The notes under the pieces were generated by a model. It was not told the origin of the DNA. It did not search any database and saw nothing but the letters and a program-made list of their open reading frames with translations. Position numbers and translations under genes: made by a program. Positions 1 to 16,513 of a DNA stretch of 30,012 nt are shown here, in pieces; the first letter of the stretch is position 1, and each line of letters opens with the position of its first letter. This DNA is from a virus. The DNA lies in the IMG/VR virus record IMGVR_UViG_3300044678_002033, positions 1-30,012 of that record; one strand, given 5' to 3'.

Positions 1-1072
1 TCATCGCTTTCCCTGCTGGCGGGCGGTGCGACGGCACGTTTCCTGGTGCCGACTTCATCTGCATGGCGATAATACCGACCTTCTCAAGGCCAGCATCGAC
101 GCACTCCTGTTCGAGCCTGTCGCATAGCCCGAGCGTCTTCTTGCCGTCCACCGTCTTTCTGACGCTGTCCTTGATGTTCACGGCCAGTATGCCGCCAGAG
201 CGCAAGGCGCGGCTGCACCCGCGGACGAGGCTGCGCAGAAAGCCTGAAACCCAGGAGTCGACCGTCGTGTACCTGGCCCAGGACTGCGCGCTCTCGTACT
301 GCGTACCAGAGGCATAGCGTTCGGTGTCGAAATACGGCGGCGATGTGAAAGCCAGGTCAAACTCGGATTGCCCAGCGTCAAAGTCCTCGAAGCACGAATC
401 CGTCACCCCCTGGAGCGCCGCGTTGCCGAACCTGTCGATGATCCCCTTATATCCAGCGAAGTTGCCGCTATTTGGGTCGACGCCCACATATCGAACACCA
501 CACGAGCACGCGGCGACGAGTCTGTCGCCCCATCCTGCGCACGGGTCGAGCACGCTCTTTGCTCCGAAGTGCCTGATCACAGCCGCCGCCACCGCAGGCT
601 TGAACTGCGCGGCGTTGTAGCAGGCACCGGACAGCCTAGTGACGGCACGCAGCAAGCCCTCATCAAGCCTGTCGGTCTTCGCGAACCTGGAGGCGCACCC
701 GATGACGCGCTTCCATGCGGGGCCGCCGCCGTCGGCGAGCGACGACCACATCTCACGCGGAGACGGCCGATCGTATCCGCCACACTCCATGCGGCTGTCG
801 TGCAGAAAGTGGTCGCTTGCAGACAATCCAACGTGCGTGAACGTGGCCGTTCCAAGCAGCCCATCGGCCGTGCCAAGCGAGTATCGGCCGGATGCGAGTG
901 ACGCGAACGACTTGTCTGCCTCCAGCAGCGTCGGCGCCGGCCAAGGAACACGCCTATCTCGAGCGCTAGCCTCGGCAGCGTCAAGGATAAACGACTCGAC
1001 GCTGTCCGTCCTGTACCCAGACACGCCAAAGTCTTCCTGGCCGCCAAAGAGAAAGTGCGTTGTCGCGCTCAT
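1..1072 (-). CDS. DNA methyltransferase (N6-adenine or N4-cytosine), 3' end cut by window edge
   Basis: I read 357 codons from ATG at 1072 with no stop before the left edge, so the C-terminus lies outside the window. The motif DPCAGWGDRL (residues about 176-185) is an S-adenosylmethionine binding motif I, and TSPPYF (about 243-248) is the catalytic motif IV of amino-methyltransferases that act on adenine N6 or cytosine N4. Motif I precedes motif IV. The roughly 150 residues before motif I are not recognised and could take part in target recognition. The ATG overlaps the TGA of the upstream gene (ATGA), so translation is probably coupled. A stand-alone phage methyltransferase without a visible nuclease usually protects phage DNA from host restriction; that role is inferred. 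The target base and site cannot be read from the sequence. Confidence 0.85.
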   Translation of the reverse strand, partial: MSATTHFLFGGQEDFGVSGYRTDSVESFILDAAEASARDRRVPWPAPTLLEADKSFASLASGRYSLGTADGLLGTATFTHVGLSASDHFLHDSRMECGGYDRPSPREMWSSLADGGGPAWKRVIGCASRFAKTDRLDEGLLRAVTRLSGACYNAAQFKPAVAAAVIRHFGAKSVLDPCAGWGDRLVAACSCGVRYVGVDPNSGNFAGYKGIIDRFGNAALQGVTDSCFEDFDAGQSEFDLAFTSPPYFDTERYASGTQYESAQSWARYTTVDSWVSGFLRSLVRGCSRALRSGGILAVNIKDSVRKTVDGKKTLGLCDRLEQECVDAGLEKVGIIAMQMKSAPGNVPSHRPPAGKAM

Positions 1073-1323
1073 TTCTCAAACCTCACATACAGCGGCCCGT
1101 TCTCACCGACGTAGGCGCCGAGGGTGTTGAACGACAGAAACTCGTCGGCCTCCTCGGGCGTCATGCCGTCACGCTCGACGAGAACGTCGATGCACTTCTC
1201 GATGTCATAGACGGCCACGATCGGGTGGTGGTGGTTCACGGTGTAGCCAACCAGGGCCGCCTCAAGGCCGTCGGCCAGGAGAGCGTCTGGGTTGAGTTCG
1301 GAGAGAAGTTCGAGAGTCGTCAC
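1069..1323 (-). CDS. Small conserved phage protein, function unknown (84 aa)
   Basis: The chosen start is GTG at 1323, which overlaps the TGA of the preceding gene (GTGA); the frame is open further upstream but would run through that gene. The product is acidic and contains the segments PIVAVYDIEKCIDVL and EEADEFLSFNTLGAYVG. I recognise this pattern (YD-x-x-K-C-I followed by FN-T-x-G-A-Y-V-G) as a small protein common in many unrelated phage genomes, with no established function that I know. It sits between a coiled-coil protein and the methyltransferase and is coupled to both by four-base overlaps, so it is probably made together with them. Confidence 0.75.
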   Translation of the reverse strand: MTTLELLSELNPDALLADGLEAALVGYTVNHHHPIVAVYDIEKCIDVLVERDGMTPEEADEFLSFNTLGAYVGENGPLYVRFEK

Positions 1324-1556
1324 TCCATCGCCTCCCTGACCTTCCTCGCCACCTCGGGGCTGCGGAACCAGCCCACGCTCCACGCACACTTCCACACCCC
1401 CTCGTCGTCGCCGTGGCCCATCGCGTCCAACTTCGCCACCAGAAACATCACGTTTCGCTCAAACAGCGCGACTCGTTCCTTCGCCTCGTCGAGCCGTCGT
1501 CGCAGGCGGCTGTTGCCTTTGATGGCTCCGGTGAGTTCCTTGCGGTAGGTCTTCAT
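1320..1556 (-). CDS. Small charged helical protein, function unknown (78 aa)
   Basis: The ATG at 1556 begins MKTYRKELTGAIKG. Residues about 15-45 are rich in Arg, Lys, Glu and Leu in a heptad-like pattern and probably form an amphipathic helix or short coiled coil. The C-terminal half has a WKCAWSVGWFRSPE segment. No family is recognised. The stop overlaps the GTG start of the next gene. Just upstream is a tRNA T-arm-like segment rather than a clear Shine-Dalgarno, so the exact start is less certain than the reading frame. Confidence 0.6.
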   Translation of the reverse strand: MKTYRKELTGAIKGNSRLRRRLDEAKERVALFERNVMFLVAKLDAMGHGDDEGVWKCAWSVGWFRSPEVARKVREAME

Positions 1557-1561
1557 CGAAG

Positions 1562-1653
1562 CAGCCCTTGCGGGGGTCGAACCCGCGTCTCCAGCGCTTT
1601 CTGGCGTTTTTCCTTGCCCGGCGTGCGCACATCCGGTTCCAAACTATTGGGCC
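1562..1653 (-). other. tRNA-like segment with a perfect T-arm, probably a degenerate tRNA
   Basis: On the minus strand, 1586-1570 forms a perfect five-pair T-stem (GCGGG/CCCGC) around the loop TTCGACC. It is followed by AAGGGCT at 1569-1563. A partial acceptor partner GGCCC lies at 1653-1649, giving about four pairs plus one G-U and two A-A mismatches. An inner CCAG/CTGG hairpin could be a class II variable arm. I could not place a normal D-arm or a seven-base anticodon loop, so this is not a functional tRNA by eye. It lies in the gap between two small genes. Confidence 0.3.
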
Positions 1654-1660
1654 ACGAATA

Positions 1661-1759
1661 TCACTCCCCAAACCAAGTCGTGCAGTGCAGGATCGAGAAG
1701 TACGTCACCGCGCCCGCTGCGACGAGGAAGCAGGCGACGTTGAGCCAGGCGTGCATCAT
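1661..1759 (-). CDS. Very small predicted membrane protein (32 aa) coupled to csrA
   Basis: This frame opens with ATG ATG at 1759 and ends with TGA at 1661. Its first ATG overlaps the TGA of csrA (ATGA), the coupling used throughout this phage, which supports real translation. The product starts MMHAWLNVACFLVAAGA and has one hydrophobic stretch at about residues 5-24, predicted to span the membrane, followed by a short tail ending WFGE. It is below the size cut-off of most gene callers. No family is recognised. A regulatory or lysis-associated membrane peptide is possible, but nothing in the sequence decides this. Confidence 0.5.
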   Translation of the reverse strand: MMHAWLNVACFLVAAGAVTYFSILHCTTWFGE

Positions 1760-1917
1760 GTGCGCACCTGTTGCTGCAACTCCGACCGCACGATCTTCGT
1801 CGTGTCCGGTGCTTTGATCGCCAGACGCACCTGGCCGTCGGCGACTCGCGTGACCATGACCTCGATGTCAGGCCCGATCTGAACCTTCTCGCCTTTGCGG
1901 CGCGTGATGACGAGCAT
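1756..1917 (-). CDS. csrA: CsrA/RsmA family RNA-binding translational regulator (53 aa)
   Basis: From ATG at 1917 the protein is colinear with Escherichia coli CsrA: it begins MLVITRRKGE, has IGPDIEVMV in the beta2-beta3 region, VRLAIKAP in the beta4 region, and Arg at position 44, the residue known in E. coli CsrA to contact the GGA motif of target RNA. The family works as a dimer that binds GGA motifs in hairpin loops and usually blocks the Shine-Dalgarno. At 53 residues it is slightly shorter than the usual 60 or so, with a trimmed C-terminus. The start is fixed by the conserved N-terminus and by AGGAG nine bases upstream. An in-frame extension to 1983 is open but would add unrelated residues. 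The leader has a GGA hairpin, suggesting autoregulation. CsrA homologues do occur in phages; targets here are inferred. Confidence 0.95.
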   Translation of the reverse strand: MLVITRRKGEKVQIGPDIEVMVTRVADGQVRLAIKAPDTTKIVRSELQQQVRT

Positions 1918-1921
1918 GAGA

Positions 1922-1937
1922 AACGGCTCCTTCCGTT
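1922..1937 (-). promoter_or_regulatory. Hairpin presenting the csrA Shine-Dalgarno GGA in a six-base loop
   Basis: On the minus strand AACGG (1937-1933) and CCGTT (1926-1922) form a perfect five-pair stem around the loop AAGGAG (1932-1927). The loop is the Shine-Dalgarno of csrA, nine bases before the ATG. GGA in a hexaloop over a ribosome binding site is the classic CsrA target architecture, so this is a candidate autoregulatory site. The structure is seen; binding is inferred. Confidence 0.55.
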
Positions 1938-1952
1938 GTCGTGGGTAGTAGC

Positions 1953-2429
1953 CTACAGACCGCCAGACCGCTTGGCAAGCCAAGTTTTCACCGCCTCGCG
2001 AACCGCAGGGCGGGGGTGGCTCTCGGCGGCCCAGGACAGGTAGTCTGCTCCCCGCGGCGTGGCGGCGGCCTCGTCGAGCGTCTGGCCGGCGTAGCGGCCG
2101 TCGCGGAACCGGAATGCGTCAGGCGCCGGCTCCTGGATGACGCCGGCTATCGCCTTCGCCTCCTGCTTCGTCCCGCAGAAACAGCACTCCAGGAGCCACT
2201 GACCGCGATCCTCGTCGAGGATGTCGTGGCACTCGGCTCCGCAGGCATCGTCGGCACAGGCGTAGGTTTGGTCGATGCGACCGAGGGGGCGAATGTCCCT
2301 AAATATAAGAGGCTTTTTGGGGACTGCTTCAGCCTCTGGCTGGGGGGTGGCAGTCGCGCGCGCGCGCTTTTGCTTCGACGGTTTCTGTTCTTCCGGCGGG
2401 ATGAATGTGTCGAACAGTAGGGTATTCAT
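1953..2429 (-). CDS. Zinc-binding protein with exonuclease X-like C-terminal (DUF3820-like) domain
   Basis: The 158-residue product has three parts. Residues 1-45 are low-complexity and basic (KPSKQKRARATATPQPE). Residues about 57-90 carry five or six cysteines (ACADDACGAEC, then ECCFCG), a probable zinc ribbon. Residues about 108-155 contain FRDGRYAGQTLDEAA and YLSWAAESHP, matching the short domain at the C-terminus of exodeoxyribonuclease X and in DUF3820 proteins (a GxYxGxT segment, then YLxW). The catalytic exonuclease domain itself is absent. The gene follows the UvrD-like helicase with a four-base overlap, which suggests a DNA-processing accessory role. Function is inferred from context and domain only. 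Confidence 0.7.
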   Translation of the reverse strand: MNTLLFDTFIPPEEQKPSKQKRARATATPQPEAEAVPKKPLIFRDIRPLGRIDQTYACADDACGAECHDILDEDRGQWLLECCFCGTKQEAKAIAGVIQEPAPDAFRFRDGRYAGQTLDEAAATPRGADYLSWAAESHPRPAVREAVKTWLAKRSGGL

Positions 2430-4081
2430 ATGGGCAACTCCATTCGATTCTTCGACCTCGGATCATGGGCCACGATCAACGTGTGCTTCGCGCGGGTGCA
2501 GGCGACGTATTCGATCCGCCGCTCCTCCGCGAACCGGGCGGGATCATTCTCCTCCGACGCCCGCGTCCTCCAGTTCACGCTCGTCAGCAGCACTACCTTC
2601 GACGCCTCCATGCCTTTGCTGGCGTGAATCGTCCCGATGCGAATCTTCGGCTCGCTGACGGCTTCGACTCCCCACTGCTTCGCGGCCCGCACCCACTTTG
2701 TGCCGCCGTCCGGCAGGCCACTCCACGCCCCCGACGCGATCGCGTCGCGGAGGTGCTCCGTTGCACCTAGGTTCCCGAGGTCTTCGGGGTAGACGCGGTC
2801 GAATTGCTCCGCGAGTCCCTTCTTCCAGTGAGCTTTGCTGCCCCTAACCAGCCACTCGCGGCCATCCGTCGTCTTCGACGGCAGCGCCTCGAGAATCTGC
2901 CCCCACTCCTCGCCGCTGATGCCGTTGCCGTGCTGGAGGTTCCAAAGGCCGCCCATTGCCTTGTCGCGGTTCTGCGCCCCGTTCTTGCTTTTGACGTACC
3001 GATACGGCACGCCGACGTCCTCCAGGATGTTCTTGATCCTGGAGACGTCCCGGTTCGTCCTGGCGATGACGAGCGTGTCCTCGTCGGGCCGGAGGTCGGA
3101 CAGGTCGTCCTCGAAGTTCTCGCTCTCCATGACCTCGCCGTCGTGGTCGGCCGGGGCGATGCCGCGATCCCAGTAGTCTGGGAGCCGCTGGAGGCAGCGT
3201 TCGCCGAGTTGCATGATCGGCTTCGGGCAGCGGAACGACTTCGGCATGATCGACTGTTTCTGGACGTCCCAGGACATGAAGTGATCCGCGCTCGCACCAG
3301 ACCACGAATACAAAACCTGATAGGGGTCGCCGACGAGCCAGGCCCACTTGCAGGCATCGCCGGTCACGAGCCGCCGGCAGGCCATGTCGAGCAGTTTGCT
3401 GGCGTCCTGGGCCTCGTCGAAAATCCATCCCACAACGTCATCGGGGACGCCGCCCTCGGGCGTCACGAAGTCCGGCCCCGTCTCCGGGTCGAAGCGGACG
3501 CCGCTGAAGCGGGCCAGGAGGTCGGTGAAGTCGACCCTGGCGTCCAGCCGCTTGGCCTGTTCGTACATCACGATCCGCTTGATAACCTCGTCGGCTGACG
3601 GCGCCTCGGGGTCTTGGTCGGCCTCGACCACCTCACGCAGCGGGATGACGAGGTTCCTCGACAGGCTCCAGTAGTTCAGGGCCGACGCCGCGACCCGGTC
3701 CCCGGTGTAGACCTGGACGCCGCCCTCATCGTCGTCCATCGAGAAGGCGACGTCGCTGCCGACGGCCTCCGACACCCACTTGGCGTCCTCGATGCCCCCG
3801 GTGCCGACGATCTCGCCGCGTGACACCCCCAGCATCTTGAAACACACCGCATGGGCGGTCTTGAACCACCCGTGCTGCATCAGTTCCTCCGGCGGCACGC
3901 CCCAAGCCTTCCCACAACGCATGGCTGCCTCTGTGCGGGCCGCTCGCGTCATGGACGAGAATCCTAGCGCCAGCGGATTGCCGGCCATCTCGGGCCTCGC
4001 CAGAGCCTTCTCCGCGATGCCCTTCATCATCGTGGTCTTCCCGGTGCCTGCCCCACCTATCGCTCTTGCGCAGATTGCCAT
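2426..4081 (-). CDS. UvrD/Rep-like superfamily 1A DNA helicase
   Basis: The 551-residue protein has the SF1A motifs in order: Walker A GGAGTGKTT (9-17), motif II DEAQD (222-226), motif III GDPYQVLYSWSG (251-262), motif V with TIHASKGMEASKVVLL, and motif VI EERRIEYVACTRAK near the C-terminus. SF1A helicases translocate 3' to 5' on single-stranded DNA using ATP. At this length it is shorter than UvrD (about 720), and the accessory subdomains are reduced, as in many phage helicases. It lies directly downstream of the Prim-Pol primase, separated by an iteron-like repeat region, so a role in phage replication or recombination is likely. The ATG at 4081 is just downstream of the first repeat copy and has only a weak Shine-Dalgarno (GGGAA). 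Confidence 0.92.
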   Translation of the reverse strand: MAICARAIGGAGTGKTTMMKGIAEKALARPEMAGNPLALGFSSMTRAARTEAAMRCGKAWGVPPEELMQHGWFKTAHAVCFKMLGVSRGEIVGTGGIEDAKWVSEAVGSDVAFSMDDDEGGVQVYTGDRVAASALNYWSLSRNLVIPLREVVEADQDPEAPSADEVIKRIVMYEQAKRLDARVDFTDLLARFSGVRFDPETGPDFVTPEGGVPDDVVGWIFDEAQDASKLLDMACRRLVTGDACKWAWLVGDPYQVLYSWSGASADHFMSWDVQKQSIMPKSFRCPKPIMQLGERCLQRLPDYWDRGIAPADHDGEVMESENFEDDLSDLRPDEDTLVIARTNRDVSRIKNILEDVGVPYRYVKSKNGAQNRDKAMGGLWNLQHGNGISGEEWGQILEALPSKTTDGREWLVRGSKAHWKKGLAEQFDRVYPEDLGNLGATEHLRDAIASGAWSGLPDGGTKWVRAAKQWGVEAVSEPKIRIGTIHASKGMEASKVVLLTSVNWRTRASEENDPARFAEERRIEYVACTRAKHTLIVAHDPRSKNRMELPI

Positions 4082-4087
4082 TTGGAT

Positions 4088-4202
4088 TTCCCGTCAGTTG
4101 TAAGTGCTTGTAGACAAAGGATTTGCGACACGTTGACGCAGATTTTCCGTCATTTCACGATTTTCCCGTCACTCGTAAGTGCTTGCTATTTCAGCACTTA
4201 CG
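4088..4202. repeat. Iteron-like direct repeats with a 10-bp inverted repeat; candidate replication origin or operator
   Basis: Two 23-base direct repeats at 4088-4110 and 4163-4185 differ at two positions; both begin TTCCCGTCA and end GTAAGTGCTTG, and their starts are 75 bases apart. A partial third copy, TTTTCCGTCA, is at 4143-4152. The second copy runs into a perfect inverted repeat, CGTAAGTGCT (4174-4183) and AGCACTTACG (4193-4202), with a nine-base loop. The array spans the 87-base gap between primase and helicase and the last codons of the primase gene. Local AT content looks higher than in the flanks. Repeats beside replication genes often bind an initiator; a dual role as operator or terminator is also possible. 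Confidence 0.5.
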
Positions 4203-6016
4203 TCACAAGACGCGGAATACGGACGCTCCGAGCAGGTTTTTGCCCCTCCGACCATCTCGTCTCCCCCGTATATAGGCGTTTTTTCCGTCACGGCCTTCGG
4301 GGCGCCCTCGGCGAGAGCCTGGACGGCCTCGACCCATGCCGGCGAGAACACGACGTAGGAGTGCCTGACAGTGCCGAACGTGTGCCGGCCCTCTGGCATA
4401 TCCGACGCCGCGAGCCGCTGGCAGAGGAGGTGGCGGATGCGAATCCGCTCGCCCGCCTGCACATCGTGCGTCCGCCCGATGTCCTCCCATGTCTTCGACC
4501 ACTTGAACCACAACTCATCCGGCTTCACCCAGCACGGGCGGCCGGAGATGTTCGGCTCCGGCTTTTCCTCGCTCCTGGGCTGCGTGGCTTTCGTGAACGA
4601 CTCCATGAGATAGGCCGCCAGGGTCGCATACCGCAGGCCAGACACGCCGACATGAATGTCGCCGTCCTTGCTGGTCTGCTTCTTCTCGATCAGTTTTTCG
4701 ACAAGACCACGAATCTTCGGCCGCTTGGCATTCCCGTCCTGCCCCCTCCACAACCGCTCCCACTCACCGCGATCACCGTCCAGGATCACGCGGCGTGTTG
4801 CCTGAAACACCTTGTTGGCAACCTTCGTGGCTGACCGAAAGTCATCGAAGCTGAACGTCACGCGGCCCTCGCACGGCGTGTCTGCCCACTGCTTGACGAC
4901 GAGGACGATCTCCGGCGGGTCGCCCTGAATCATCTGCACATCCCAGTCCCCCGGCATCCACTCCCCATCGGCCCAGCCGTCAACTGGCTTCCACTCCAGC
5001 CCGTGCAGTTGGTAGCCGCTGACTGGCTTCGGGACGACCTCCCCTTTCTCGATTCTCTCGGCGATCTTCTTCGCGGCATCGTCGATGTCGGCAGCCTTCT
5101 TCGGCACAAAATCGCCAGACTGCTCGAGTTGCCTCCTGTAGGACACACACGACTGCACGATGGACGCAACCTCGTCTCGAGACTTCGGAGGCTTGCATCG
5201 CTGCATATTCGTGTTCCATACGAGGCCGAGGATGTCCTCCTGCTCGTCATCGTCTTCGTAGTAGTCATTCCGCATGACCAGTTTTGTCGCCAGCGCAAGC
5301 AGCGTCGGATGGCGATAGCCTTCGCCAACGTCGCCGTGAATAACGTGCCGCGACGATTTCAACTTGGCGGTGCCGCCCGGCTTCGACTGGCCGCTCACGA
5401 TCGCCCGCACTAACTCTTCCGGCACCTTGGCGAACTCGACCTCGTCGACTCGCATGGTGGGCTTCCATTTGTATTGGATGCCCTTCCAGTGCCACGAGCA
5501 CGGCGTCACGCTCTGCGAAGCCTTCTTGCCGACGCCGAGCCGCACCTCGAGGCCGCCTGGGTACACAACAGCCCTCTCGACTTGCGAGAAGCGGTCATCC
5601 CACAAGAAAAGCCTGTGCTCCGACCGCCCCGACGAATACGTCGGCGTCTCGATCCTGGTGAGGCCGATCTGCTCCGCGTACTGCTGCGCTGTCGGGTCAT
5701 CCCATTCGATGTCGATGATCCCAGTTGACGGCCCCAAGAGCAGGCCGACGTTGAACGGAACTTTTGTCTTCTCGTATTCCTCAAGCCATGCCTCTACATC
5801 TTCTTCTGTCCTGGCAACGCGGTGCTGCCACCCATCGCCTCCGGCGGGGTGTTTGCCGCATTGCTTGTGGCCGCTCGCGTTGATGTGATGCCCAGCCTTC
5901 CCGCATGTGCAATAGCCCTCCGGCGTGATGCCATGCAGTTTCACACCACGGCCACCGACGGCGATGAGGGCTACGGTTTCCTTGAAGATCGCGTTCGGGT
6001 CGAACTCAAAAGCCAT
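4169..6016 (-). CDS. Bifunctional DNA primase/polymerase (Prim-Pol) with PriCT_1 domain
   Basis: The 615-residue protein starts at ATG 6016 (MAFEFDP), preceded by AAGGAG; an in-frame ATG at 6052 lies inside the upstream gene. Hallmarks of the Prim-Pol family (archaeo-eukaryotic primase fold) are a cysteine/histidine cluster at about 36-56 (CTCGKAGHH, then QCGKHPAGG), the acidic metal-binding strand IIDIEWDD (100-107), SGRSEHRLF (129-137) and PCSWHWKGIQYKW (172-184). Residues about 230-292 with GEGYRHPTLLALATKLV match the PriCT_1 primase C-terminal domain. The remaining 300 or so residues are not recognised and show no Walker A, so the helicase function is probably supplied by the separate downstream SF1 enzyme. 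Role: primer synthesis and possibly polymerisation for phage DNA replication. Confidence 0.88.
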   Translation of the reverse strand: MAFEFDPNAIFKETVALIAVGGRGVKLHGITPEGYCTCGKAGHHINASGHKQCGKHPAGGDGWQHRVARTEEDVEAWLEEYEKTKVPFNVGLLLGPSTGIIDIEWDDPTAQQYAEQIGLTRIETPTYSSGRSEHRLFLWDDRFSQVERAVVYPGGLEVRLGVGKKASQSVTPCSWHWKGIQYKWKPTMRVDEVEFAKVPEELVRAIVSGQSKPGGTAKLKSSRHVIHGDVGEGYRHPTLLALATKLVMRNDYYEDDDEQEDILGLVWNTNMQRCKPPKSRDEVASIVQSCVSYRRQLEQSGDFVPKKAADIDDAAKKIAERIEKGEVVPKPVSGYQLHGLEWKPVDGWADGEWMPGDWDVQMIQGDPPEIVLVVKQWADTPCEGRVTFSFDDFRSATKVANKVFQATRRVILDGDRGEWERLWRGQDGNAKRPKIRGLVEKLIEKKQTSKDGDIHVGVSGLRYATLAAYLMESFTKATQPRSEEKPEPNISGRPCWVKPDELWFKWSKTWEDIGRTHDVQAGERIRIRHLLCQRLAASDMPEGRHTFGTVRHSYVVFSPAWVEAVQALAEGAPKAVTEKTPIYGGDEMVGGAKTCSERPYSASCDVSAEIASTYE

Positions 6017-6752
6017 TGCGAATTGCTCCTTCTTCTCGCCAACTTGCTGCATTTTCCTTTGCAGACACTAACCGAAGCGTCTTGTTCGCCATGTGAAACA
6101 AAGACCACTTCTCTTCCAATGTTTTGTCTTTCATCGCAACGCCGCACACGACGTCTGATTTCGTTTCAACGTCTGTGAGCGACAGCCCTTCCTTCGCCAA
6201 GAAGGAGTCGCGAAGGCTCGCGAATGTTCTCGGGTAGTGATCGACGTTCGCGTCGCGCCACGCCAGCGGCTCGCCGCTTGCGTCACTCGTTACGCTGCCA
6301 GAGCCGCTCGCGTACCGCCATCGCTTGTAATCCGCGACTTGGTTGGCGACCGCCCGCCGCATTGCTTGCGTGGCCTGCGACTCCTTCTTGAACCCGGAGC
6401 AGCACTTCTTCCAACTGAAGTCGATTTCGTTTCCGCCAGAGTAGGCGACGAACGTGTGGTTGACATTCGTTTTTGATCCTCCGAACAGGGAGTGACCAGA
6501 CGAGTGTCTTACGCGGACGCCTTCGATCTCATGCTCGAGGCCGGGGATGATCTTCTCGTGCGGGCTGTCGTGGCGGACAAGTATTAACTCCAGCATGAAC
6601 AGCGAGTGGTCTTCGCTCATCATCTCGCCGTCAGAGTATGACGAGATAATCTCCCGGCACCGCCGCTCAATCGCGGCATTTGATGAAAACTGCTCGCCGC
6701 GAATCGTCGCATGGTTCCGTCCACGCATCTGCACGATGAACTCCTTGTTCAT
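6006..6752 (-). CDS. DCL/DUF3223-domain protein with HNH-like VDH motif, putative nuclease
   Basis: The N-terminal 140 residues have the DUF3223 (DCL family) pattern: a helix with REIISSYSDGEMMSEDHSLF, then ELILVRHDSPHEKIIPGLE, then FVAYSGGNEIDFSWKKCCSG. The C-terminal part contains ANVDHYPRTFASLRDSF, which resembles the VDH-x-x-P-x-T-F signature of phage DUF3223 proteins thought to carry an HNH-like metal site. Plant DCL proteins act in chloroplast rRNA processing; the phage versions have no proven role that I know. The gene is translated just before Prim-Pol, and its stop overlaps the Prim-Pol start by 11 bases. Base composition is lower in GC than its neighbours by eye, hinting at separate acquisition. 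A 14-pair hairpin covers its ribosome binding site. Confidence 0.65.
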   Translation of the reverse strand: MNKEFIVQMRGRNHATIRGEQFSSNAAIERRCREIISSYSDGEMMSEDHSLFMLELILVRHDSPHEKIIPGLEHEIEGVRVRHSSGHSLFGGSKTNVNHTFVAYSGGNEIDFSWKKCCSGFKKESQATQAMRRAVANQVADYKRWRYASGSGSVTSDASGEPLAWRDANVDHYPRTFASLRDSFLAKEGLSLTDVETKSDVVCGVAMKDKTLEEKWSLFHMANKTLRLVSAKENAASWREEGAIRNGF

Positions 6753-6756
6753 AAAT

Positions 6757-6793
6757 CCCCTCCCGGCCCCGCAGTCGCAGGGGCCGGGAGGGG
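6757..6793 (-). promoter_or_regulatory. Strong GC hairpin that buries the ribosome binding site of the DUF3223 gene; possible attenuator
   Basis: A perfect 14-base inverted repeat (6757-6770 and 6780-6793) with a nine-base loop lies four bases upstream of the ATG at 6752. On the minus strand its second arm is GGGGCCGGGAGGGG, which contains the only plausible Shine-Dalgarno. It is not followed by a T-run, so it is a poor intrinsic terminator, and translational control fits better. The rest of the 184-base gap from 6753 to 6936 shows no convincing gene. Confidence 0.6.
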
Positions 6794-6936
6794 CGTTGGT
6801 CGCCCGCTGCCGTGGCGGGAGGGAAAAACGCCGGATGGTCAGTCAGACTTCCCGTCGTTACAACGCCACTGACGGGCTGGGCCTGCCGGTCCACGGTGAT
6901 GAGTCGTGGTTTGGGCCTCCGGCCAGGCCGCCGTGA

Positions 6937-7713
6937 TCACTCCCCGTCGTGGCCGTCGCCGGCCTCGACGAAGGCGCCGACCGGGGGCGCGGAGAACATC
7001 CGCTTCAGCGGCTCGACGTAGATGCGTCGCGCCACCTCACCCTGCTCCTCGCTGACCTGGCCGACGACGCGAGGGACGATGAGGCTGTACGGCTGGCCGC
7101 CGCTGCTCTTCGCCTTCTCGAGTTTCAGCCCGATCACGCACTCGTAGTGGAACGAGGGCAGCCGCTTCTTCCACGGCAGGAAGCCTGCCAAGCTCCCCGG
7201 CCCGACGGTGACCAGGACCGGCCACACCTCGCCCTCCCGCAGGACGGCGACGATGCGGCTCTCCTTGCACCGCTTGCCGGCGCCCCCGCGGGCGCTCTTG
7301 AAGCCGAACTCGGGAGAGTTCGACAGCGCGATCCAGTCATAGCGACGGTCGCCGATGCGGTACTTCTCGAGCGCCTTCGGATCGATCGTCCCGAGGTCAT
7401 CCGACACGCGGTAGCCGACGAGGAGATCGTTCGTCACGATCACCGGCCGCTGGTCCGTCGGGTCGTCCTGGGGCCAGAGCACGCCACGGTTGGCGATGCA
7501 GACGCAGAGGCCGACGATCTCATCGACCGCTTCCTCGTTGCCGTTAACCGGCACCGACCACTTCGTGCCGCCGCCGGCCGGAGTTTTGACCCGCACGAGG
7601 TCTTGCTCCCGCATCGGCTCGCCCTCGAGGTTCGCCTCGATGATCCGCATCTGCCGACTGTCGGCCGCCAGGCCGGGGTAGTCGATCGTCTTCGTCGCAA
7701 TCGCAGTCGTCAT
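6937..7713 (-). CDS. Conserved phage replication-module protein, possible single-stranded DNA-binding function (258 aa)
   Basis: The start is taken as ATG 7713 (MTTAIATKT) because AAGGAG lies eight bases upstream; an in-frame ATG at 7737 lacks this. The product is beta-rich with segments GGTKWSVPVNGNEEAVDEIVG, here split as GGTKWSVPV (about 48-56) and EEAVDEIVG, then GAGKRCKESR, PVLVTVGPGSLAGF and VIGLKLEKAKSSGGQPYS. Proteins of this pattern (a KWxVP segment, later GKxCK, later LEK with GGxxYS) often sit beside phage primases, but I know of no proven role. The location in the replication module and beta-rich composition make a DNA-binding or SSB-like role plausible; this is inference. A hairpin in the leader exposes the Shine-Dalgarno and pairs the start codon. 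Confidence 0.6.
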   Translation of the reverse strand: MTTAIATKTIDYPGLAADSRQMRIIEANLEGEPMREQDLVRVKTPAGGGTKWSVPVNGNEEAVDEIVGLCVCIANRGVLWPQDDPTDQRPVIVTNDLLVGYRVSDDLGTIDPKALEKYRIGDRRYDWIALSNSPEFGFKSARGGAGKRCKESRIVAVLREGEVWPVLVTVGPGSLAGFLPWKKRLPSFHYECVIGLKLEKAKSSGGQPYSLIVPRVVGQVSEEQGEVARRIYVEPLKRMFSAPPVGAFVEAGDGHDGE

Positions 7714-7730
7714 GCTTTTCTCCTTGCATG
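7711..7730 (-). promoter_or_regulatory. Leader hairpin with the GGA Shine-Dalgarno in the loop and start codon in the stem
   Basis: On the minus strand CATGC (7730-7726) pairs perfectly with GCATG (7715-7711), which includes the start codon. The ten-base loop AAGGAGAAAA holds the Shine-Dalgarno. This is one of several GGA-in-loop leaders in this phage that could be CsrA targets. Five pairs could occur by chance, so the call is tentative. Confidence 0.35.
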
Positions 7731-7748
7731 TAGACAATCAAACCAGCG

Positions 7749-8240
7749 TCACCGTGACGCATTTCGGTGAAGCACAAACTCCCACCGAATCTTTTGGGCG
7801 TTGGCCTGTGTCGGCCGACGCGGGCGGCTCTTGCAAGACCACTCACTTGCACGCCTGCGTCCAGCAATGACCCATCCAGCAGCCGCGTAAATCGTCCCCG
7901 TGTGAACCGAGGTGTCTTGGTAGCTGACGAGCTTGTTGATGTGCGGCAGTTCAGCGCTGATCAAGTTCCGCATCACACGCAGCACTCTGCTGGCCGTGTT
8001 CTTTGGAGCATCGTCGGAGATTGCGAATCGGCGCAGTTCTAGCGTCCTTCCGTCGTTGAGCATCCTCGCGACCGGCGAAGTCCAGACGGCCGCCGCATAG
8101 GCGATTCCATCCAGCGACGCCGAGTAACAGACGTAGTCGCTGTTGCGGTAAATGTTTGACCGATCAATCACCGGGAGCCTGCTGTGCCACTTCCTGACCA
8201 ACTCACAAGCAAACAAGACCGCACACCTATCAACCTTCAA
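7749..8240 (-). CDS. GNAT-fold acyltransferase resembling phage Mu Mom; possible DNA modification enzyme
   Basis: The conserved core contains LVRKWHSRLP near the N-terminus, then LELRRFAISDDAPKNTASR, LVSYQDTSVHTGTIY and AAAGWV. This order (WH-S-x-x-P, E-L-x-R-x-x-x-x-D-x-x-P-x-N-T-x-S, then S-Y-x-D and G-x-I-Y-x-A) is what I recall for the Mom-like branch of the GNAT superfamily; Mu Mom modifies adenine in DNA to protect it from restriction. Acyl-CoA acetyltransferase activity on another substrate is the alternative. The start is uncertain: no ATG fits. TTG at 8240 is chosen because the frame further upstream reads through a tRNA gene; TTG at 8216 is also possible. Neither has a clear Shine-Dalgarno. 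Base composition is somewhat lower in GC than the flanks. Confidence 0.6.
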   Translation of the reverse strand: MKVDRCAVLFACELVRKWHSRLPVIDRSNIYRNSDYVCYSASLDGIAYAAAVWTSPVARMLNDGRTLELRRFAISDDAPKNTASRVLRVMRNLISAELPHINKLVSYQDTSVHTGTIYAAAGWVIAGRRRASEWSCKSRPRRPTQANAQKIRWEFVLHRNASR

Positions 8241-8244
8241 CTGA

Positions 8245-8317
8245 AGCGCAGAGGTCGGACTCGAACCGCCCCCTCCCTCTTGGAATAGAGGGTGTGCCAC
8301 CCGGCCACTTTCTGCGC
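8245..8317 (-). tRNA. tRNA-like gene, probably tRNA-Gly(UCC), with an enlarged anticodon loop
   Basis: A perfect seven-pair acceptor stem (GCGCAGA at 8317-8311, TCTGCGC at 8252-8246) encloses a D-arm (GTG...CAC), an anticodon stem CCCTC/GAGGG and a T-loop TTCGAGT. The anticodon loop reads TATTCCAA, eight bases instead of seven; T-TCC-AA suggests U33, anticodon UCC and A37-A38. The T-stem is extended to six positions with one mismatch, and the variable loop is short. No CCA is encoded. It lies between two protein genes with 15 bases to the upstream one. These departures from the standard fold mean it may be a decayed or specialised tRNA. Confidence 0.6.
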
Positions 8318-8332
8318 GGTGTTCCACTGCAA

Positions 8333-8782
8333 TCACCCAACCGTGACATGACGCAGTCGGGGGGCAACGTGCTCCCCGACAAGACCAGAGAACGGGGTGC
8401 CTTCGGAGTGGGAGGAGCGGGCGTCCTTGCCCGCCTCCTTCGCCATCTCACGCAGGAGGCTCTTCAGCCGAGCGGTGTTGACGCTTTCCAACTGCTTCCA
8501 GCAGCCGGCAGCCTTCGCCGCTTCGATGACAGCCTCCTTCCGGTCCTCCGTAACCGACATGAAGTGGTCGAACTCGACCCTCCACGACCTCCCTGCAACC
8601 CTGACTCCGTCCAGGCGTTGTGTCGTCATCTCCTCGACGGCCAGCGACTCGAGGTGCTGGCGGCGAGCCTTAAGTTGGTCGATGCGGTCATTGGCCTCGA
8701 CCATCTGTTTGTCGATGGCGGCGATTTCAGCGAGCACGGTCGAGAGCGTGCTGTCTGTGCTTGTAGCCTGTGATGAGTTCAT
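8333..8782 (-). CDS. Phage protein with N-terminal coiled coil, function unknown (149 aa)
   Basis: Residues about 15-55 (TVLAEIAAIDKQMVEANDRI and the following Lys/Arg-rich stretch) form a predicted coiled coil. The middle has GRSWRVEFDHFMSVTEDRKE and AAKAAGCWKQLESVNTARLK, and the end reads PFSGLVGEHVAPRLR. The order of a GRSxRV strand, a VNTxRL segment and a terminal GLVGExVxPRL recurs in small phage proteins, but I know of no function. Its start lies 56 bases inside the 3' end of the SNF2 helicase gene, in another frame, with AAGGAAG about nine bases upstream. A part in replication or DNA handling is suggested only by position. Confidence 0.65.
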   Translation of the reverse strand: MNSSQATSTDSTLSTVLAEIAAIDKQMVEANDRIDQLKARRQHLESLAVEEMTTQRLDGVRVAGRSWRVEFDHFMSVTEDRKEAVIEAAKAAGCWKQLESVNTARLKSLLREMAKEAGKDARSSHSEGTPFSGLVGEHVAPRLRHVTVG

Positions 8783-10112
8783 TCACGACTTCCTTGCGTT
8801 CACGAAGTGCCGCATAGACCCGGCCGTCCACGGTGGATCGGCCGCTGATCGTTGCGACAAGGTGGTAGATGACGGTCTTCGCCGTCTGGCCTGGGCGGTG
8901 CAACCGCGCGACGGCCTGCTCATATTCCGCGAGGCTGTAGCCGAGGCTGTAGAACCAGCAGTAGGCCGCCCGCGTCAGGTCGATGCCAATGCCGCCCGAC
9001 TGAATCTGCGCGACGAGAACAGATGTCTGTGCTTGCTGCCAATCGGCCAGTTCGTTGCGGTCGCCAGACAGTTCGCTGACCTTCCGCCCCAGAGCCTCGG
9101 CGACGCTCTTCGCCGCCTCGATGTCGCTTTTGAACCGGCAAAAAATCACTACTGGCTCCGACGCGGGCAAGTCCTCCAGCATATCACACAGCATCTTCGC
9201 CTTGGCCGGATGCTCGTCGATCCTGGTGGCCGTCTTCTCGTCGTCGAACCGGACGTAGCCGCCGCAGATTTGCTGGAGACGGAGAAGCTGCACCAGGGCG
9301 TTGGTCGGCGTCACCGTGCCAGCGTCGCACACCGCACAGAACTCGTTCTCGACCTCTCGGTAGAGGCTTGACTCCTGCGGCGACAGGTCGCAGGCGACGT
9401 CGTGGAACGAGATCGGCGGGAGGTCGATGACGTCGGTGGTGCGAACGTAGTGCGTCGTGGCCGCGATCTTCTTGTTGGCCTGGGACAGATTCTTGAATCC
9501 GACCACGAACTTCTGCGGCCCGTTGGCGAAGACGGCGTAGTTGGCCTTGTGGAGCGTGTATGACGACCCAAAAGTGGTACAGTCCGGCGCCTCGACGGCC
9601 CGGTAGATCGCCCAGGCGTCCAGGATCGAATGCGGGATCAGCGTGCCGGTGAGGCCCAGGCGCCGAGACGTCGGGTTGGCCTTCACCATCTTGGCCGCCC
9701 AGCGGCTCGCCACGCCAGTGGCACTCTTCAGGCGGTGAATCTCGTCCCACACGAAGCAGTCCCACCGAGCCTTTTCGACGCTCTTGAGCCGCCAGACGCT
9801 CTCGTAATTGCAGATGACGAGCACCGGCGAGGTGTCGGCCAGGGCCGAGACGACGGCCTTGTCCTTCGCAGCCGATCCGTTCTGCTCGAGCGCGATGACG
9901 CGGAGTTCAGGGAACCAGAGGCCCGCCTGCTTCACCCAGGCCGGAATCACGGCCTTCGGACAGCAGACGAGCGTTCGGTTCGCGCCGAGCCGGCGCAGAT
10001 ACTCAAGCGCCGTCCGCGTCTTGCCGCTGCCCATGCCGTGATGGAGCAGGGCCGCTTGGCGGTCGAGCGCCCAGCGAATCGCTTCCTCTTGATGCTGCCA
10101 AAGCCAACGCAC
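8727..10112 (-). CDS. SNF2-family superfamily 2 DNA helicase/translocase
   Basis: The 461-residue protein carries Walker A GMGSGKT (26-32), motif Ia CPKAVIPAW, motif II DEIH (123-126), motif III LTGT (154-157), a VIFCRFKSDIEAAKSV segment beginning the second RecA-like lobe, motif V GGIGIDLTRA and motif VI AVARLHRPGQT (about 400-410). The HRxGQT ending is typical of SNF2-type ATPases, which translocate on double-stranded DNA. Phage SNF2 helicases are common in replication modules; precise roles are mostly unproven. The start is GTG at 10112 with GGAGGAA five bases upstream, but that Shine-Dalgarno is inside a 10-pair hairpin. The gene overlaps the following one by 56 bases. Confidence 0.92.
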   Translation of the reverse strand: MRWLWQHQEEAIRWALDRQAALLHHGMGSGKTRTALEYLRRLGANRTLVCCPKAVIPAWVKQAGLWFPELRVIALEQNGSAAKDKAVVSALADTSPVLVICNYESVWRLKSVEKARWDCFVWDEIHRLKSATGVASRWAAKMVKANPTSRRLGLTGTLIPHSILDAWAIYRAVEAPDCTTFGSSYTLHKANYAVFANGPQKFVVGFKNLSQANKKIAATTHYVRTTDVIDLPPISFHDVACDLSPQESSLYREVENEFCAVCDAGTVTPTNALVQLLRLQQICGGYVRFDDEKTATRIDEHPAKAKMLCDMLEDLPASEPVVIFCRFKSDIEAAKSVAEALGRKVSELSGDRNELADWQQAQTSVLVAQIQSGGIGIDLTRAAYCWFYSLGYSLAEYEQAVARLHRPGQTAKTVIYHLVATISGRSTVDGRVYAALRERKEVVNELITGYKHRQHALDRAR

Positions 10113-10114
10113 GG

Positions 10115-10144
10115 CATTCCTCCATCCATGAGCGTGGAGGAATG
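10115..10144 (-). promoter_or_regulatory. Ten-pair hairpin covering the SNF2 helicase Shine-Dalgarno, with GGA in its loop
   Basis: On the minus strand CATTCCTCCA (10144-10135) and TGGAGGAATG (10124-10115) pair perfectly around the loop CGCTCATGGA. The second arm contains the GGAGGAA Shine-Dalgarno, and the loop contains its own GGA. The stem would block ribosome binding unless melted or bound. An RNA-binding regulator such as the phage CsrA could act here; that is inference. Confidence 0.55.
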
Positions 10145-10170
10145 TATCGGGCCGATAGGCTACGAGTCAA
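10143..10170 (-). promoter_or_regulatory. Weak candidate promoter for the SNF2 helicase and downstream early genes
   Basis: On the minus strand TTGACT (10170-10165) is separated by 16 bases from GATACA (10148-10143). The first hexamer is close to the sigma-70 -35 consensus; the second matches the -10 consensus only in part. The -35 overlaps the stop codon of the HTH gene. Host promoter consensus is unknown, so this is only a candidate. Confidence 0.22.
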
Positions 10171-10733
10171 GAGACTTTCTTTCGGGGCCGTCCCGGCTTC
10201 TTGCCGGCGGCCTCGAGCGCCCGCATCTCCTTGACGTTCTCCTGGCACGAACGCCGCGAGATGATGAAGACCTTGGACCCCGTCTTGCCCCGTGGATTCC
10301 ACGGCTTGCGGCCGACGACCTTGCCGCTGGCGATGAGCCGCGGGATGAGGGTTTGGTGGACACAGAGGATTTTCGCCGCCTCGGCCATGCCGATGGCGTC
10401 GGCGAAGACGATCGGCGCCTTCACCGCCTTCAGGTGCCGCAGGGCGTCGGGGCGTGTGTGAAGCCACGAGCGTGGCCGACGCTCCGTCTTGCCGCCCGCC
10501 GCCCGAAACCGCTCGTCGTAGTCCTGGTAGTTGGCCTCACACTCGGCCCCGTCATAGATCGCGTAGGTGCGGCTGGGGTCGTCGGAGTAGAGCGAGCCTG
10601 TGACGAGGTGGGACGTCAACTGCCCCTTCTCGACCATCCTGGCCGGCTGTGTCCAGTGGATGCCAAGGATGCCGGCGGCCTCCGCAGAGCCGACGGCCTG
10701 GGCAAGATAGTCAACCTTTTTCGACTTCCCCAT
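10167..10733 (-). CDS. DNA-binding protein with two helix-turn-helix modules and a C-terminal AT-hook
   Basis: From ATG 10733 (MGKSKKVDYLAQA, with GGGAGCGG just upstream) the product is 188 residues. An HTH-like module near residues 12-45 (VGSAEAAGILGIHWTQPARM) is echoed by a second at about 110-145 (IGMAEAAKILCVHQTLIPRL); both share the pattern GxAEAAxILxxH followed by a recognition-helix candidate and PRL or PARM. The C-terminus KKPGRPRKK is a classic AT-hook minor-groove motif. The gene is divergent from the integrase operon across a 98-base gap, a common position for a phage repressor, excisionase or early regulator. The in-frame extension to 10847 covers that gap and lacks family-like sequence. 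Function is inferred. Confidence 0.75.
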   Translation of the reverse strand: MGKSKKVDYLAQAVGSAEAAGILGIHWTQPARMVEKGQLTSHLVTGSLYSDDPSRTYAIYDGAECEANYQDYDERFRAAGGKTERRPRSWLHTRPDALRHLKAVKAPIVFADAIGMAEAAKILCVHQTLIPRLIASGKVVGRKPWNPRGKTGSKVFIISRRSCQENVKEMRALEAAGKKPGRPRKKVS

Positions 10734-10753
10734 TTTTCCCGCTCCCTGTGGAC

Positions 10754-10782
10754 TTGACCTGTAGTGGAGGATAGGGGATTCT
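10754..10782 (+). promoter_or_regulatory. Candidate promoter for the plus-strand integrase operon
   Basis: TTGACC (10754-10759) is followed after 17 bases by GATTCT (10777-10782). Spacing is ideal and the -35 good, but the -10 matches TATAAT at only three positions. The element lies in the divergent region between the HTH gene and the plus-strand operon, 49 bases before the GTG at 10832. It overlaps the 12-base repeat CTTGACCTGTAG (10753-10764), which recurs at 25043-25054. Confidence 0.3.
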
Positions 10783-10831
10783 AGGGGGCGGAAGGAAGCA
10801 GGACGCACAAACCCGCGGAAAGGAGGCCGGT

Positions 10832-11041
10832 GTGGGACAGCGGACATTTACGGTTCTGGTCGAGTGGGAGGACGGAGAGGTGTGTGACGCCGACGAGTTC
10901 GTGGTCATGGCAAAGTCTGCCGTCGAGGCAAAGAGTATCGCTCGTGCCATGTGGTCTGCGACCATCGGTGCCGAGTACCCCTCGTGCCGGGCGGAAAAAT
11001 TGTTGATTCTCACGAAACGCATGATGCGCTCGTTTGCCTAA
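10832..11041 (+). CDS. Small acidic phage protein upstream of the integrase, function unknown (69 aa)
   Basis: GTG at 10832 is preceded by a full-strength Shine-Dalgarno, AAAGGAGG, five bases upstream, which makes translation likely. The product starts MGQRTFTVLVEWEDGEVCD, a beta-hairpin-like acidic segment, continues with SAVEAKSIARAMW, a helix, and ends with a basic tail. No family is recognised; the beta-beta-alpha pattern occurs in many small phage proteins. It is co-directional with the integrase, 39 bases ahead of it, on the only plus-strand operon in the window, so a role in integration, excision or lysogeny is possible but not shown. Confidence 0.7.
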   Translation: MGQRTFTVLVEWEDGEVCDADEFVVMAKSAVEAKSIARAMWSATIGAEYPSCRAEKLLILTKRMMRSFA

Positions 11042-11080
11042 TCGCATGGATGTGGTACTCCATTTTGAGGAGACACCACC

Positions 11081-11935
11081 TTGACGCTGCAACAACTTTT
11101 GAACGATGTGTACGCTCCTCTGAAGGGGATTAGCGACAGGACGATTCGGCTCTACGGAATGACGATTGGGAAGTATCAAGAGTTTCTCGGCGGCGTCGAG
11201 CCGACCGTCGAGCAACACCTTGATGAACTGGAACTCGCCAAGTTCCTGGCCTGGCGTTTGCGGACTCGGTCTGTTGGGACAGCGGCGAAAGACCGCGCCC
11301 AGTTGCACGCGCTCGCCGAGTTCGCCGCCCGCCGTGGCCTCTGCCCCTGGCCGCAGATGCGCACGATCCGCGTGCCGGAGCGTGTGCCTCGAGCGTGGCT
11401 CATCGACGAGTTCAGGAAACTCCTCGTCGCCTGCGATGGCGAGCAAGGAGAAATCTGCGGCGTGCCGGCGGCTCTCTGGTTCCGCAGCATCCTCCAGACC
11501 GCGTACTGGACGGGCGAGCGGATCGGCGGCCTGCTGGCGCTCGAGTGGTCAGACGTCGAGCCGCAGGCGGTGATCTTCCGCGCCGAGGGCCGGAAGGGGC
11601 AGCGAGCCGACATCTATCGGCCGATTCCACTAGAGTGCTACGAGGCCGTCATGGCGACGAAGACGAAGCGGAAGATCGTCTTCGATTGGGATCGCAGCTA
11701 TACCCTCATCTGGCACCGCCTCGGCCGCATCTGTGAGCGTGCGGGCCTGCCGAATGACCGGATGAGCAAGTTTCACCGCGTCAGGAAGACGTCGGCATCC
11801 TACTACGCTGCGGCCGGCGGCGACCCGCAGACGCTGATGGGACACTCAAGTCCGGCCGTCACGAGGAAGTACCTGGACCCGAGGATCGTGCGGCCCGACA
11901 CGAACGCACCCGATGTCCTGCCGAAAGTCAGTTAG
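11081..11935 (+). CDS. int: Tyrosine recombinase (phage integrase)
   Basis: The 284-residue protein has an N-terminal SAM-like core-binding domain (about 1-95) and a C-terminal catalytic domain. Catalytic residues appear in order: Arg147 in TGERIGG, Lys172 in GRKGQ, His232 and Arg235 in FHRVRKTSASYY, His255 in LMGHSS, and the nucleophile Tyr264 in RKYLDP. Tyrosine integrases cut and rejoin phage and host att sites. There is no long arm-binding N-terminal domain, so this is a compact recombinase. The start is TTG at 11081 with GAGGAG about eight bases upstream; the frame is closed by TGA at 11066. Its 3' end overlaps the convergent minus-strand gene by eight bases. The att site was not identified. 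Presence of an integrase indicates a temperate phage. Confidence 0.93.
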   Translation: MTLQQLLNDVYAPLKGISDRTIRLYGMTIGKYQEFLGGVEPTVEQHLDELELAKFLAWRLRTRSVGTAAKDRAQLHALAEFAARRGLCPWPQMRTIRVPERVPRAWLIDEFRKLLVACDGEQGEICGVPAALWFRSILQTAYWTGERIGGLLALEWSDVEPQAVIFRAEGRKGQRADIYRPIPLECYEAVMATKTKRKIVFDWDRSYTLIWHRLGRICERAGLPNDRMSKFHRVRKTSASYYAAAGGDPQTLMGHSSPAVTRKYLDPRIVRPDTNAPDVLPKVS

Positions 11936-12209
11936 CCTCTGCCGGCAGCATCGCCGCGTACTGCTCGGCGGTGATCTCCTCAACGGCACCGCTGGTAATG
12001 AGTTGCGGGAGCATTTCGCTTGGCAGGTTGTAGGCGCAATACTCTGCCGAAATGCGTAGGTACACGCGCCCCAGAACGTCGCTCGGAAGGTCCGCCACTA
12101 GCGGCAGCGTCCGCGCGGTCTTCGTCGCCGCATTCGGATAGCCGTATGCGGCGTCCAACTGGGCGCAGATGCTTGCGTACACTGCGGGCGTGGAGCGGAA
12201 GTATCTCAT
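11928..12209 (-). CDS. Small phage protein at the end of the late operon, function unknown (93 aa)
   Basis: ATG at 12209 overlaps the TGA of the LamG-like gene (ATGA). The product begins MRYFRSTPAVYASICAQLD, has a central PLVADLPSDVLGRVYLRI segment and ends with an acidic helix, EEITAEQYAAMLPAEAN. It is predicted mostly helical with no membrane segment. No family is recognised. As the last gene of a chain of structural genes, and directly after a surface-type protein, it may be a tail accessory or chaperone-like protein; this is inference. Its end overlaps the convergent integrase gene. Confidence 0.65.
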   Translation of the reverse strand: MRYFRSTPAVYASICAQLDAAYGYPNAATKTARTLPLVADLPSDVLGRVYLRISAEYCAYNLPSEMLPQLITSGAVEEITAEQYAAMLPAEAN

Positions 12210-12985
12210 GCCACGGTGATGCCCCACTTGCGCCCGAGATACCGTTCAACCCGCAACCGCTGGGCGTCGGTGAGCACGCGGGGCCACACCAGTACCTCGC
12301 CGATCCAGCCGTCCAGCAGGTTCGCGCCGTTGCCGCCGCCGACAGAGACGGCCACGCTATCGGTGTCGGAGGTGTTACCGGCGGTCTGGAACGACGTGTT
12401 GCTGCCGGCGAGCGAACCCTCGGCGTAGACGAATGCGTCCGAGTTGGCGTAGTCAATTACGGCCGACGCGATCCTCGGATTGGTCGTCCCTGTGCCGTTT
12501 GCCCGGGCAAATGAATCGGCGTCCAGCCTGCGACCGCCAACCGACAAACTGTTGGCGACCGAAGCAATAGAACCGAGAGCCGCGCGGGCCTGCGTGGAAT
12601 TGGATCCAGACGAAAAGATTACGGCCGTATAGCCCAGCGAAATCGTGGACAGCGCGTCCCATTTGACGGCCGCGATGATCGTCGCCCCGCTCACGTTTCG
12701 CAGAAGCCCCAGCGTCGCGGCGTTGCCGAGCATCTCTTGCCCGCCCGTGTAGTCGAGGACGCGCCGGCCGTTCTGTGTGCGGTTCACCGCATTCGGCTGC
12801 GACGCGGCGGTCGCCTGCGCGACGTGCCGCCCGTTGCCCGACAGGTCGCGCCACTCGCTGACGGTGTTCCCGTTGAGCGTCAGGCTGCCGTCGTTGCTCG
12901 CGTCCAGCCACATGCCCAGATTGGGGATGGTGCGCGGGTCGAATCCGCTGGCTCTGGGCCGCAGCAGCCGGTTGTTCATCGCCAT
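12206..12985 (-). CDS. LamG/concanavalin A-like jelly-roll protein, probable virion surface or receptor-contact protein
   Basis: The 259-residue product (ATG 12985 chosen; ATG at 12979 also fits) begins with a short linker and then a lectin-like beta-sandwich: LGMWLDASNDGSL, VSEWRDLSGNGRHVAQATA, then repeated Ser/Thr/Gly-rich strands, and a closing GWIGEVLVWPRVLTDAQRLR segment followed by VERYLGRKWGI. The WxDLSGNGxH and closing EVLVW...LT...R...YL patterns are typical of LamG-like domains used for carbohydrate binding. In a phage this suggests a tail-tip or capsid surface protein binding host glycans, but placement at the end of the late region gives only indirect support. No signal peptide is seen. 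This domain arrangement is frequent in planctomycete sequences, which weakly suggests the host. Confidence 0.75.
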   Translation of the reverse strand: MAMNNRLLRPRASGFDPRTIPNLGMWLDASNDGSLTLNGNTVSEWRDLSGNGRHVAQATAASQPNAVNRTQNGRRVLDYTGGQEMLGNAATLGLLRNVSGATIIAAVKWDALSTISLGYTAVIFSSGSNSTQARAALGSIASVANSLSVGGRRLDADSFARANGTGTTNPRIASAVIDYANSDAFVYAEGSLAGSNTSFQTAGNTSDTDSVAVSVGGGNGANLLDGWIGEVLVWPRVLTDAQRLRVERYLGRKWGITVA

Positions 12986-12989
12986 GTGG

Positions 12990-13052
12990 TTATTTCCGCA
13001 GTGCCAGCACAAATACCGCGACGATCAGCAGGATCAGCAGCGTGTGTTCCAC
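12990..13052 (-). CDS. Twenty-residue single-span membrane peptide
   Basis: GTG at 13052 opens a frame encoding a hydrophobic peptide of 20 residues that starts MEHTLLILLIV and ends ALRK, with TAA at 12990. The hydrophobic core covers about residues 4-17, and the positive end suggests an N-out, C-in orientation. The gene fits snugly between its neighbours: three bases after the holin-like gene stop and four bases before the LamG start, with a GGGAG motif upstream. That packing supports real translation despite its size. It could be a lysis or holin-modulating peptide; no homologue is recognised. Confidence 0.45.
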   Translation of the reverse strand: MEHTLLILLIVAVFVLALRK

Positions 13053-13055
13053 GGC

Positions 13056-13355: not shown

Positions 13356-13368
13356 GGTCGCCCCCTCG

Positions 13369-13725: not shown

Positions 13726-13728
13726 TCT

Positions 13729-13742: not shown

Positions 13743-13784
13743 GTTGCGGGCCTCTATGGGCCTCACGGGGGCGTGCTACAGGGG

Positions 13785-16491: not shown

Positions 16492-16513
16492 AGGTAATAT
16501 CGTGACAAGTAGG

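Follow-up and report, generated by a model that had tools for sequence, protein, structure and literature searches.

The uncultured viral record IMGVR_UViG_3300044678_002033, analysed here whole (30,012 bases, hereafter the window), encodes a CsrA protein that, judging from the leaders of this genome and its relatives, is very probably a translational regulator of the phage clade's own genome, that is, an autoregulated repressor with a regulon. Sequence comparison shows that ANGGAN hexaloops located at or just upstream of the Shine-Dalgarno (SD) sequence are kept in several phage genes and track the presence of csrA. It also appears likely that CsrA is a post-transcriptional master regulator throughout the clade, of functions from DNA replication to tail assembly, and that csrA and the hairpins are gained and lost together. 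The csrA gene and its leader are as follows.

1756-1917, minus strand: csrA, 53 residues, matching Pfam PF02599 over residues 1-52 (71.7 bits)
1922-1937, minus strand: hairpin AACGG[AAGGAG]CCGTT, with the csrA SD as its ANGGAN hexaloop (exact match); putative autoregulatory element

The CsrA domain scores well above the curated Pfam cut-off of 27 bits, and residues 1-52 align along their full length with CsrA and RsmE chains of solved structure. As the initial annotation of this DNA had pointed out, the protein keeps Arg44; Glu46 is kept as well, and R6, R44 and E46 are invariant in eight aligned CsrA sequences of the clade. The same annotation had placed the csrA SD in a six-base loop, and this hairpin is found exactly as described.

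To follow the csrA leader across relatives, dozens of csrA-bearing viral contigs were gathered by three scans, and an unbiased set of loci was obtained by using the UvrD helicase encoded nearby as the query (csrA lies nearby in 50 of the 80 loci). The loop reads A[A/C]GGAN throughout, and the stem was rewritten in at least ten ways, each time with the pairing restored (AACGG/CCGTT, GCTGA/TCAGC, CTGA/TCAG, CGGA/TCCG, AGGA/TCCT, TCCGA/TCGGA, AGTGA/TCACT, CGCAA/TTGCG, GCGA/TCGC, GGGCA/TGCTC and GAGG/CCTC). Among all viral csrA genes, 20 of the 45 distinct 16-mers pair over at least 4 base pairs, compared to 2.0 by permutation. In the covariation test on 23 helicase-linked leaders, two-sided changes were detected at all five stem pairs (5/5), 80% of the stem cells were paired against 53%, and covariation reached 0.686 compared to 0.212 in shuffled leaders, a value attained by none of 500 shuffles; when the stem partner is slid, covariation falls to 0.17 or less. 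About 20 changes of the stem arms map to the helicase tree of 48 loci. Conservation of the stems in relatives, which had been named as a check on the proposed regulon, thus takes the form of wholesale compensatory rewriting. The arms of a hairpin are inverted repeats and could, in principle, be DNA operators for a transcription regulator; however, the loop, which is asymmetric, persists through free rewriting of the arms and invariably lies on the sense strand, at the SD or close to it, which makes such operators barely credible. Two distant viral csrA genes (L191 and L201) have leader hairpins of their own, CTCCA[CAAGGA]TGGAG and TTTGA[AAGGAA]TCAAA, respectively, suggesting that autoregulation may have arisen more than once.

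For a genome-wide census, 52 contigs were fetched, their genes were called, and a permutation test was run in which the flanks were re-dealt among leaders. The csrA-positive clade comprised 32 contigs after near-duplicates were dropped, five of these being fragments from the clade that yielded no csrA; the csrA-negative set consisted of ten relatives, most of them 50-56 kb, with no match to PF02599. Leaders with an ANGGAN-type SD were counted, and those with a stem of at least 4 base pairs were taken as positive. Hairpins were detected in 121 of the 664 leaders of csrA-positive contigs, compared to 8.6 expected, whereas the csrA-negative relatives had 7 in 248 leaders (2.6 expected), and none were seen in three phages whose CsrA is of a different, more distant kind (0/38). 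When only distinct leaders were counted, the csrA-positive contigs retained 87 of 591 (7.5 expected; the maximum of 20,000 permutations was 19), or 70 of 571 with csrA itself removed (7.2 expected), and the csrA-negative relatives 7 of 233 (2.6 expected), a slight excess that lies inside the permuted range, where the largest value was 11. Among gene families common to both groups, the hairpin is present in 45 of 315 csrA-positive leaders versus 5 of 116 csrA-negative ones. Because the contigs are related, these counts are not independent events; counting distinct leaders and using the tree lessens the effect of kinship, without removing it. Within the window, with each SD fixed and the 5' flanks re-dealt among genes, 3 of the 14 A.GGA. 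leaders have a stem of at least 4 base pairs, compared to 0.15-0.36 expected (P=0.00085). Thus, both the comparison with control leaders and that with relatives lacking csrA, which the initial annotation had suggested, came out in favor of the regulon proposed there.

The hairpins could instead be sites for the host CsrA, through which the phage would read host physiology, its own CsrA being employed elsewhere, for example, in repressing host defence mRNAs. A single recognition rule is indeed common to CsrA proteins (PMC7652899), and repression of host CRISPR-Cas has been proposed for phage RsmA homologs (PMC8450108). However, the hairpins are abundant in csrA-positive phages and close to chance in csrA-negative relatives, and the phage csrA bears such a site itself, so that we consider this explanation unlikely. 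Cross-talk with the host CsrA, in addition to a phage regulon, is likely.

The excess is confined to one loop geometry. Across loop sizes of 4 to 9 bases and every offset of GGA, the sole standout was the hexaloop NNGGAN (117 compared to 16.4 expected), apart from two geometries that are the same hairpins read in a shifted register. Hexaloops with A at position 1 account for this signal (111 of 614 compared to 7.7 expected), whereas those starting with C, G or T occur as expected (9 of 966 compared to 9.8). This answers the caveat that GGA is inherent in SD sequences, as only ANGGAN hexaloops are enriched and other GGA loops are not; an SD- or GC-based artefact is unlikely because it would be indifferent to the first base of the loop. 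That the hairpins tune translation as general SD hairpins, with CsrA uninvolved, is accordingly very improbable and already largely refuted by the near-expectation counts of the other geometries and of loops starting with C, G or T, even though these phages do contain SD-sequestering stems of other kinds (10115-10144 and 29106-29123). By sequence, the enriched geometry matches the established hexaloop rule of RsmE/CsrA, in which an ANGGAN loop marks the hairpins bound by RsmE (PMC7652899), and the candidate sites show what defines a CsrA site, namely, fixed A1 and GGA, a six-base loop and a short stem.

Beyond csrA itself (hairpin in 23 of 27 csrA-positive members), the candidate targets fall into several families. 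The hairpin is present in 26 of 62 csrA-positive versus 0 of 21 csrA-negative members of the tail-tube family, tandem paralogs included; in 17 of 18 versus 0 of 1 for a 118-residue late-region protein; in 8 of 27 versus 0 of 10 for Prim-Pol; in 7 of 20 versus 0 of 5 for a 92-residue protein; and in 6 of 39 versus 0 of 14 for a helix-turn-helix (HTH)-like protein. Among csrA-positive members, it was also detected in the tape measure (5 of 22) and in a 69-residue protein encoded beside the integrase (3 of 19). The stem is rewritten inside single families, for example, in Prim-Pol, with arms CGAAGC, GCTAG, CGCTAA and AATCA. In the window, the sites are those of csrA, the probable tail tube, the 118-residue protein, the glycosyltransferase-like gene and, weakly, the tape measure.

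24682-25017, minus strand: probable major tail tube protein, 111 residues, by synteny (between the tail terminator and the tail assembly chaperone)
25023-25036, minus strand: GCGC[AAGGAG]GCGC at the tail-tube SD, exact
13369-13725, minus strand: 118-residue late-region protein, MEPKIRRKFK family; called gene, weak match to a PHROG of unknown function
13729-13742, minus strand: GCAC[AAGGAG]GTGC at the SD of the 118-residue gene, exact
23650-23661, minus strand: weak site CTC[AAGGAT]GAG at the tape-measure SD, 3 base pairs; 4-6 base pairs with changed stems in several relatives
28373-29101, minus strand: glycosyltransferase-like protein, 242 residues; weak match to Pfam Glyco_trans_2_3 (E=1.5e-4, below cut-off)
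29127-29140, minus strand: GCGC[AAGGAT]GCGC upstream of the SD, not the SD itself; kept in csrA-positive members
29106-29123, minus strand: second hairpin CGCTCCT-CACA-AGGAGCG with the SD in its stem; in nearly all csrA-positive members; predicted minimum-free-energy fold

The two hairpins reported earlier to share the csrA loop, before the genes at 13725 and 25017, are both exact. The tail-tube hairpin is present in 79 of 80 related loci, the lone exception being cut at the contig end, and its stem variants comprise a compensated CACGC/GCGTG and one G.U intermediate. The protein is named from synteny, with no direct family match, and its AlphaFold model is of low confidence (predicted local distance difference test, pLDDT, 52.6). 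Tandem paralogs of the tail tube occupy 24295-25017, with the hairpin only on the first of these in the window. Relatives of the 118-residue gene, whose product has no Pfam match, show longer stems (CGCAC/GTGCG and ACGCAC/GTGCGT) and the loop variant AGGGAG. The tape-measure site, listed in the initial annotation as a consensus match, has only 3 base pairs here, whereas stems in several relatives are longer.

The hairpin upstream of the gene at 29101, which the initial annotation did not include, is an independent check of the loop rule: lying upstream of the SD, this loop is not kept for ribosome binding. In the listed csrA-positive members, A1, G3, G4 and A5 of the loop are invariant, whereas position 2 is A, G or T, and position 6 is any of the four bases (A/C/G/T). 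The csrA-negative orthologs of the glycosyltransferase-like gene lack this hexaloop and have a different GC-rich, partly terminator-like hairpin in its place. The arrangement of this leader, with an upstream loop and the SD in a second stem, resembles that of glgC, in which a hairpin of high affinity anchors CsrA in the vicinity of the SD (PMC7652899).

Together, these sites suggest a mechanism in which the CsrA dimer would bind ANGGAN loops and keep the 30S subunit off the SD, and would therefore limit its own synthesis and hold down its targets: in the window, the probable tail tube, the 118-residue late protein and the glycosyltransferase-like gene, and in relatives, Prim-Pol, the HTH protein, the tape measure and others. 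Repression would end once CsrA becomes diluted or antagonised, or is titrated by increasing amounts of mRNA. No cluster of GGA hairpins resembling a CsrB-type sponge RNA was detected in the fetched contigs outside coding explanations, and no Rfam match was found in the window.

Several observations weigh against such a regulon. The csrA hairpin is unclear in a few csrA-positive members (none clear in L307, 3 base pairs in G009), and one csrA-positive contig (G079) has no hairpin in any of its 42 SD leaders. The csrA-negative relatives are only about 45-49% identical in the helicase and may differ in host and otherwise. The leaders of the window have ordinary folding energies, and the hairpin of the tail tube is absent from the predicted minimum-free-energy fold of its leader. 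Finally, the tail-tube family alone lacks significant covariation, because its stems hardly vary.

Two or three of the minor sites in the initial annotation are, by their sequences, not of the CsrA type. The hairpin at 7711-7730 is real and conserved, but its geometry differs: the stem contains the start codon, and the SD lies within a loop of 10-13 nucleotides. The gene at 7713 encodes a 258-residue protein of phrog_23155 (function unknown), and this hairpin, present in 15 of 25 csrA-positive members with varying stems (TCATGC/GCATGA, GTCATG/CATGAC, GCTCA/TGAGC and TGGTA/TACCA), appears to be a separate translational switch. As a general class, stems that include the start codon and carry the SD in a large loop are not enriched (53 compared to 55.6 expected), and only the 7713 family shows them. 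At 10115-10144, the leader of the SNF2 helicase, the SD is not in a loop; it is buried in a long stem (CATTCCTCCA...TGGAGGAATG), and similar anti-SD stems are common in many relatives. The site at 28185-28201 is not conserved in relatives. A further hairpin at 8428, within 8333-8782, was rejected: it is explained by the codons for Gly-Lys-Asp-Ala, and GGC-AAG-GAC-GCC is also found in a csrA-negative contig.

Codon-usage calling, from which the gene starts are taken, yields about 40 genes in the window, nearly all on the minus strand. Among them are the terminal part of an HK97-type capsid gene, genes for head-tail and tail proteins, the tape measure and nucleotide metabolism, an integrase on the opposite strand, two helicases (SNF2 and UvrD), Prim-Pol and, after these, csrA. 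The neighbors that place the tail tube are listed below.

25057-25482: tail terminator, phrog_347
23917-24291: tail assembly chaperone, phrog_344

The tape measure is preceded by overlapping frames (23651-24291), possibly the usual programmed frameshift pair, and a tRNA-Glu call at 27948-28038, on the strand opposite to a head-tail gene, is probably spurious. Positions 1-20000 of the window have no DNA match among 50,697 phage records, nor do Prim-Pol and the glycosyltransferase-like protein have a match in these records. A host search with the capsid profile (E<=1e-20) recovered 8 of 392 genomes from the phylum of a planctomycete metagenome-assembled genome (MAG; Gemmataceae), against 1 of 398 for the phylum to which a proteobacterial MAG belongs, a contrast too weak to name a host.

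The presence of csrA in phages (PMC7366521, PMC8450108) and CsrA autoregulation at the SD in bacteria are already known, and the open-access literature searched yielded no earlier account of a phage CsrA whose regulon lies within the phage genome. Mobile csrA/rsmA genes have been described in cultured phages (F116, AUS531phi and Vibrio phages), plasmids, and integrative and conjugative elements (PMC7366521), which resemble the present case in that a mobile element carries CsrA; their role, in contrast, is unknown or proposed to be host-directed, altering the physiology or defences of the host (PMC8450108), and authors have called for tests of whether csrA is needed (PMC7366521). Here, the sequence itself points to the phage's own genes as the targets. 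The clade provides dozens of candidate CsrA sites with known loop tolerance as a natural data set, the csrA leader is a compact putative autoregulatory switch, and synthetic leaders allow a direct bench test. E. coli CsrA inhibits translation of its own mRNA, binding the leader at sites of which one covers the SD (PMC7652899). The phage case shares a candidate CsrA site over its own SD; the E. coli leader has four sites, whereas that of the phage has a single compact hexaloop hairpin located at the SD, the stem of which has been replaced repeatedly. The RsmE hairpins follow an identical loop rule, with A1, G3, G4 and A5 fixed and positions 2 and 6 variable (PMC7652899), the difference being that the candidate targets in this clade are phage genes. 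A search for phage csrA returned 89 records, mostly of bacterial type, and six csrA genes of cultured phages have leaders without the hexaloop hairpin. RegA, a translational repressor encoded by phage T4, has many targets among the phage genes and also represses its own synthesis. It differs from the phage CsrA in being an unrelated protein with an unrelated recognition rule.
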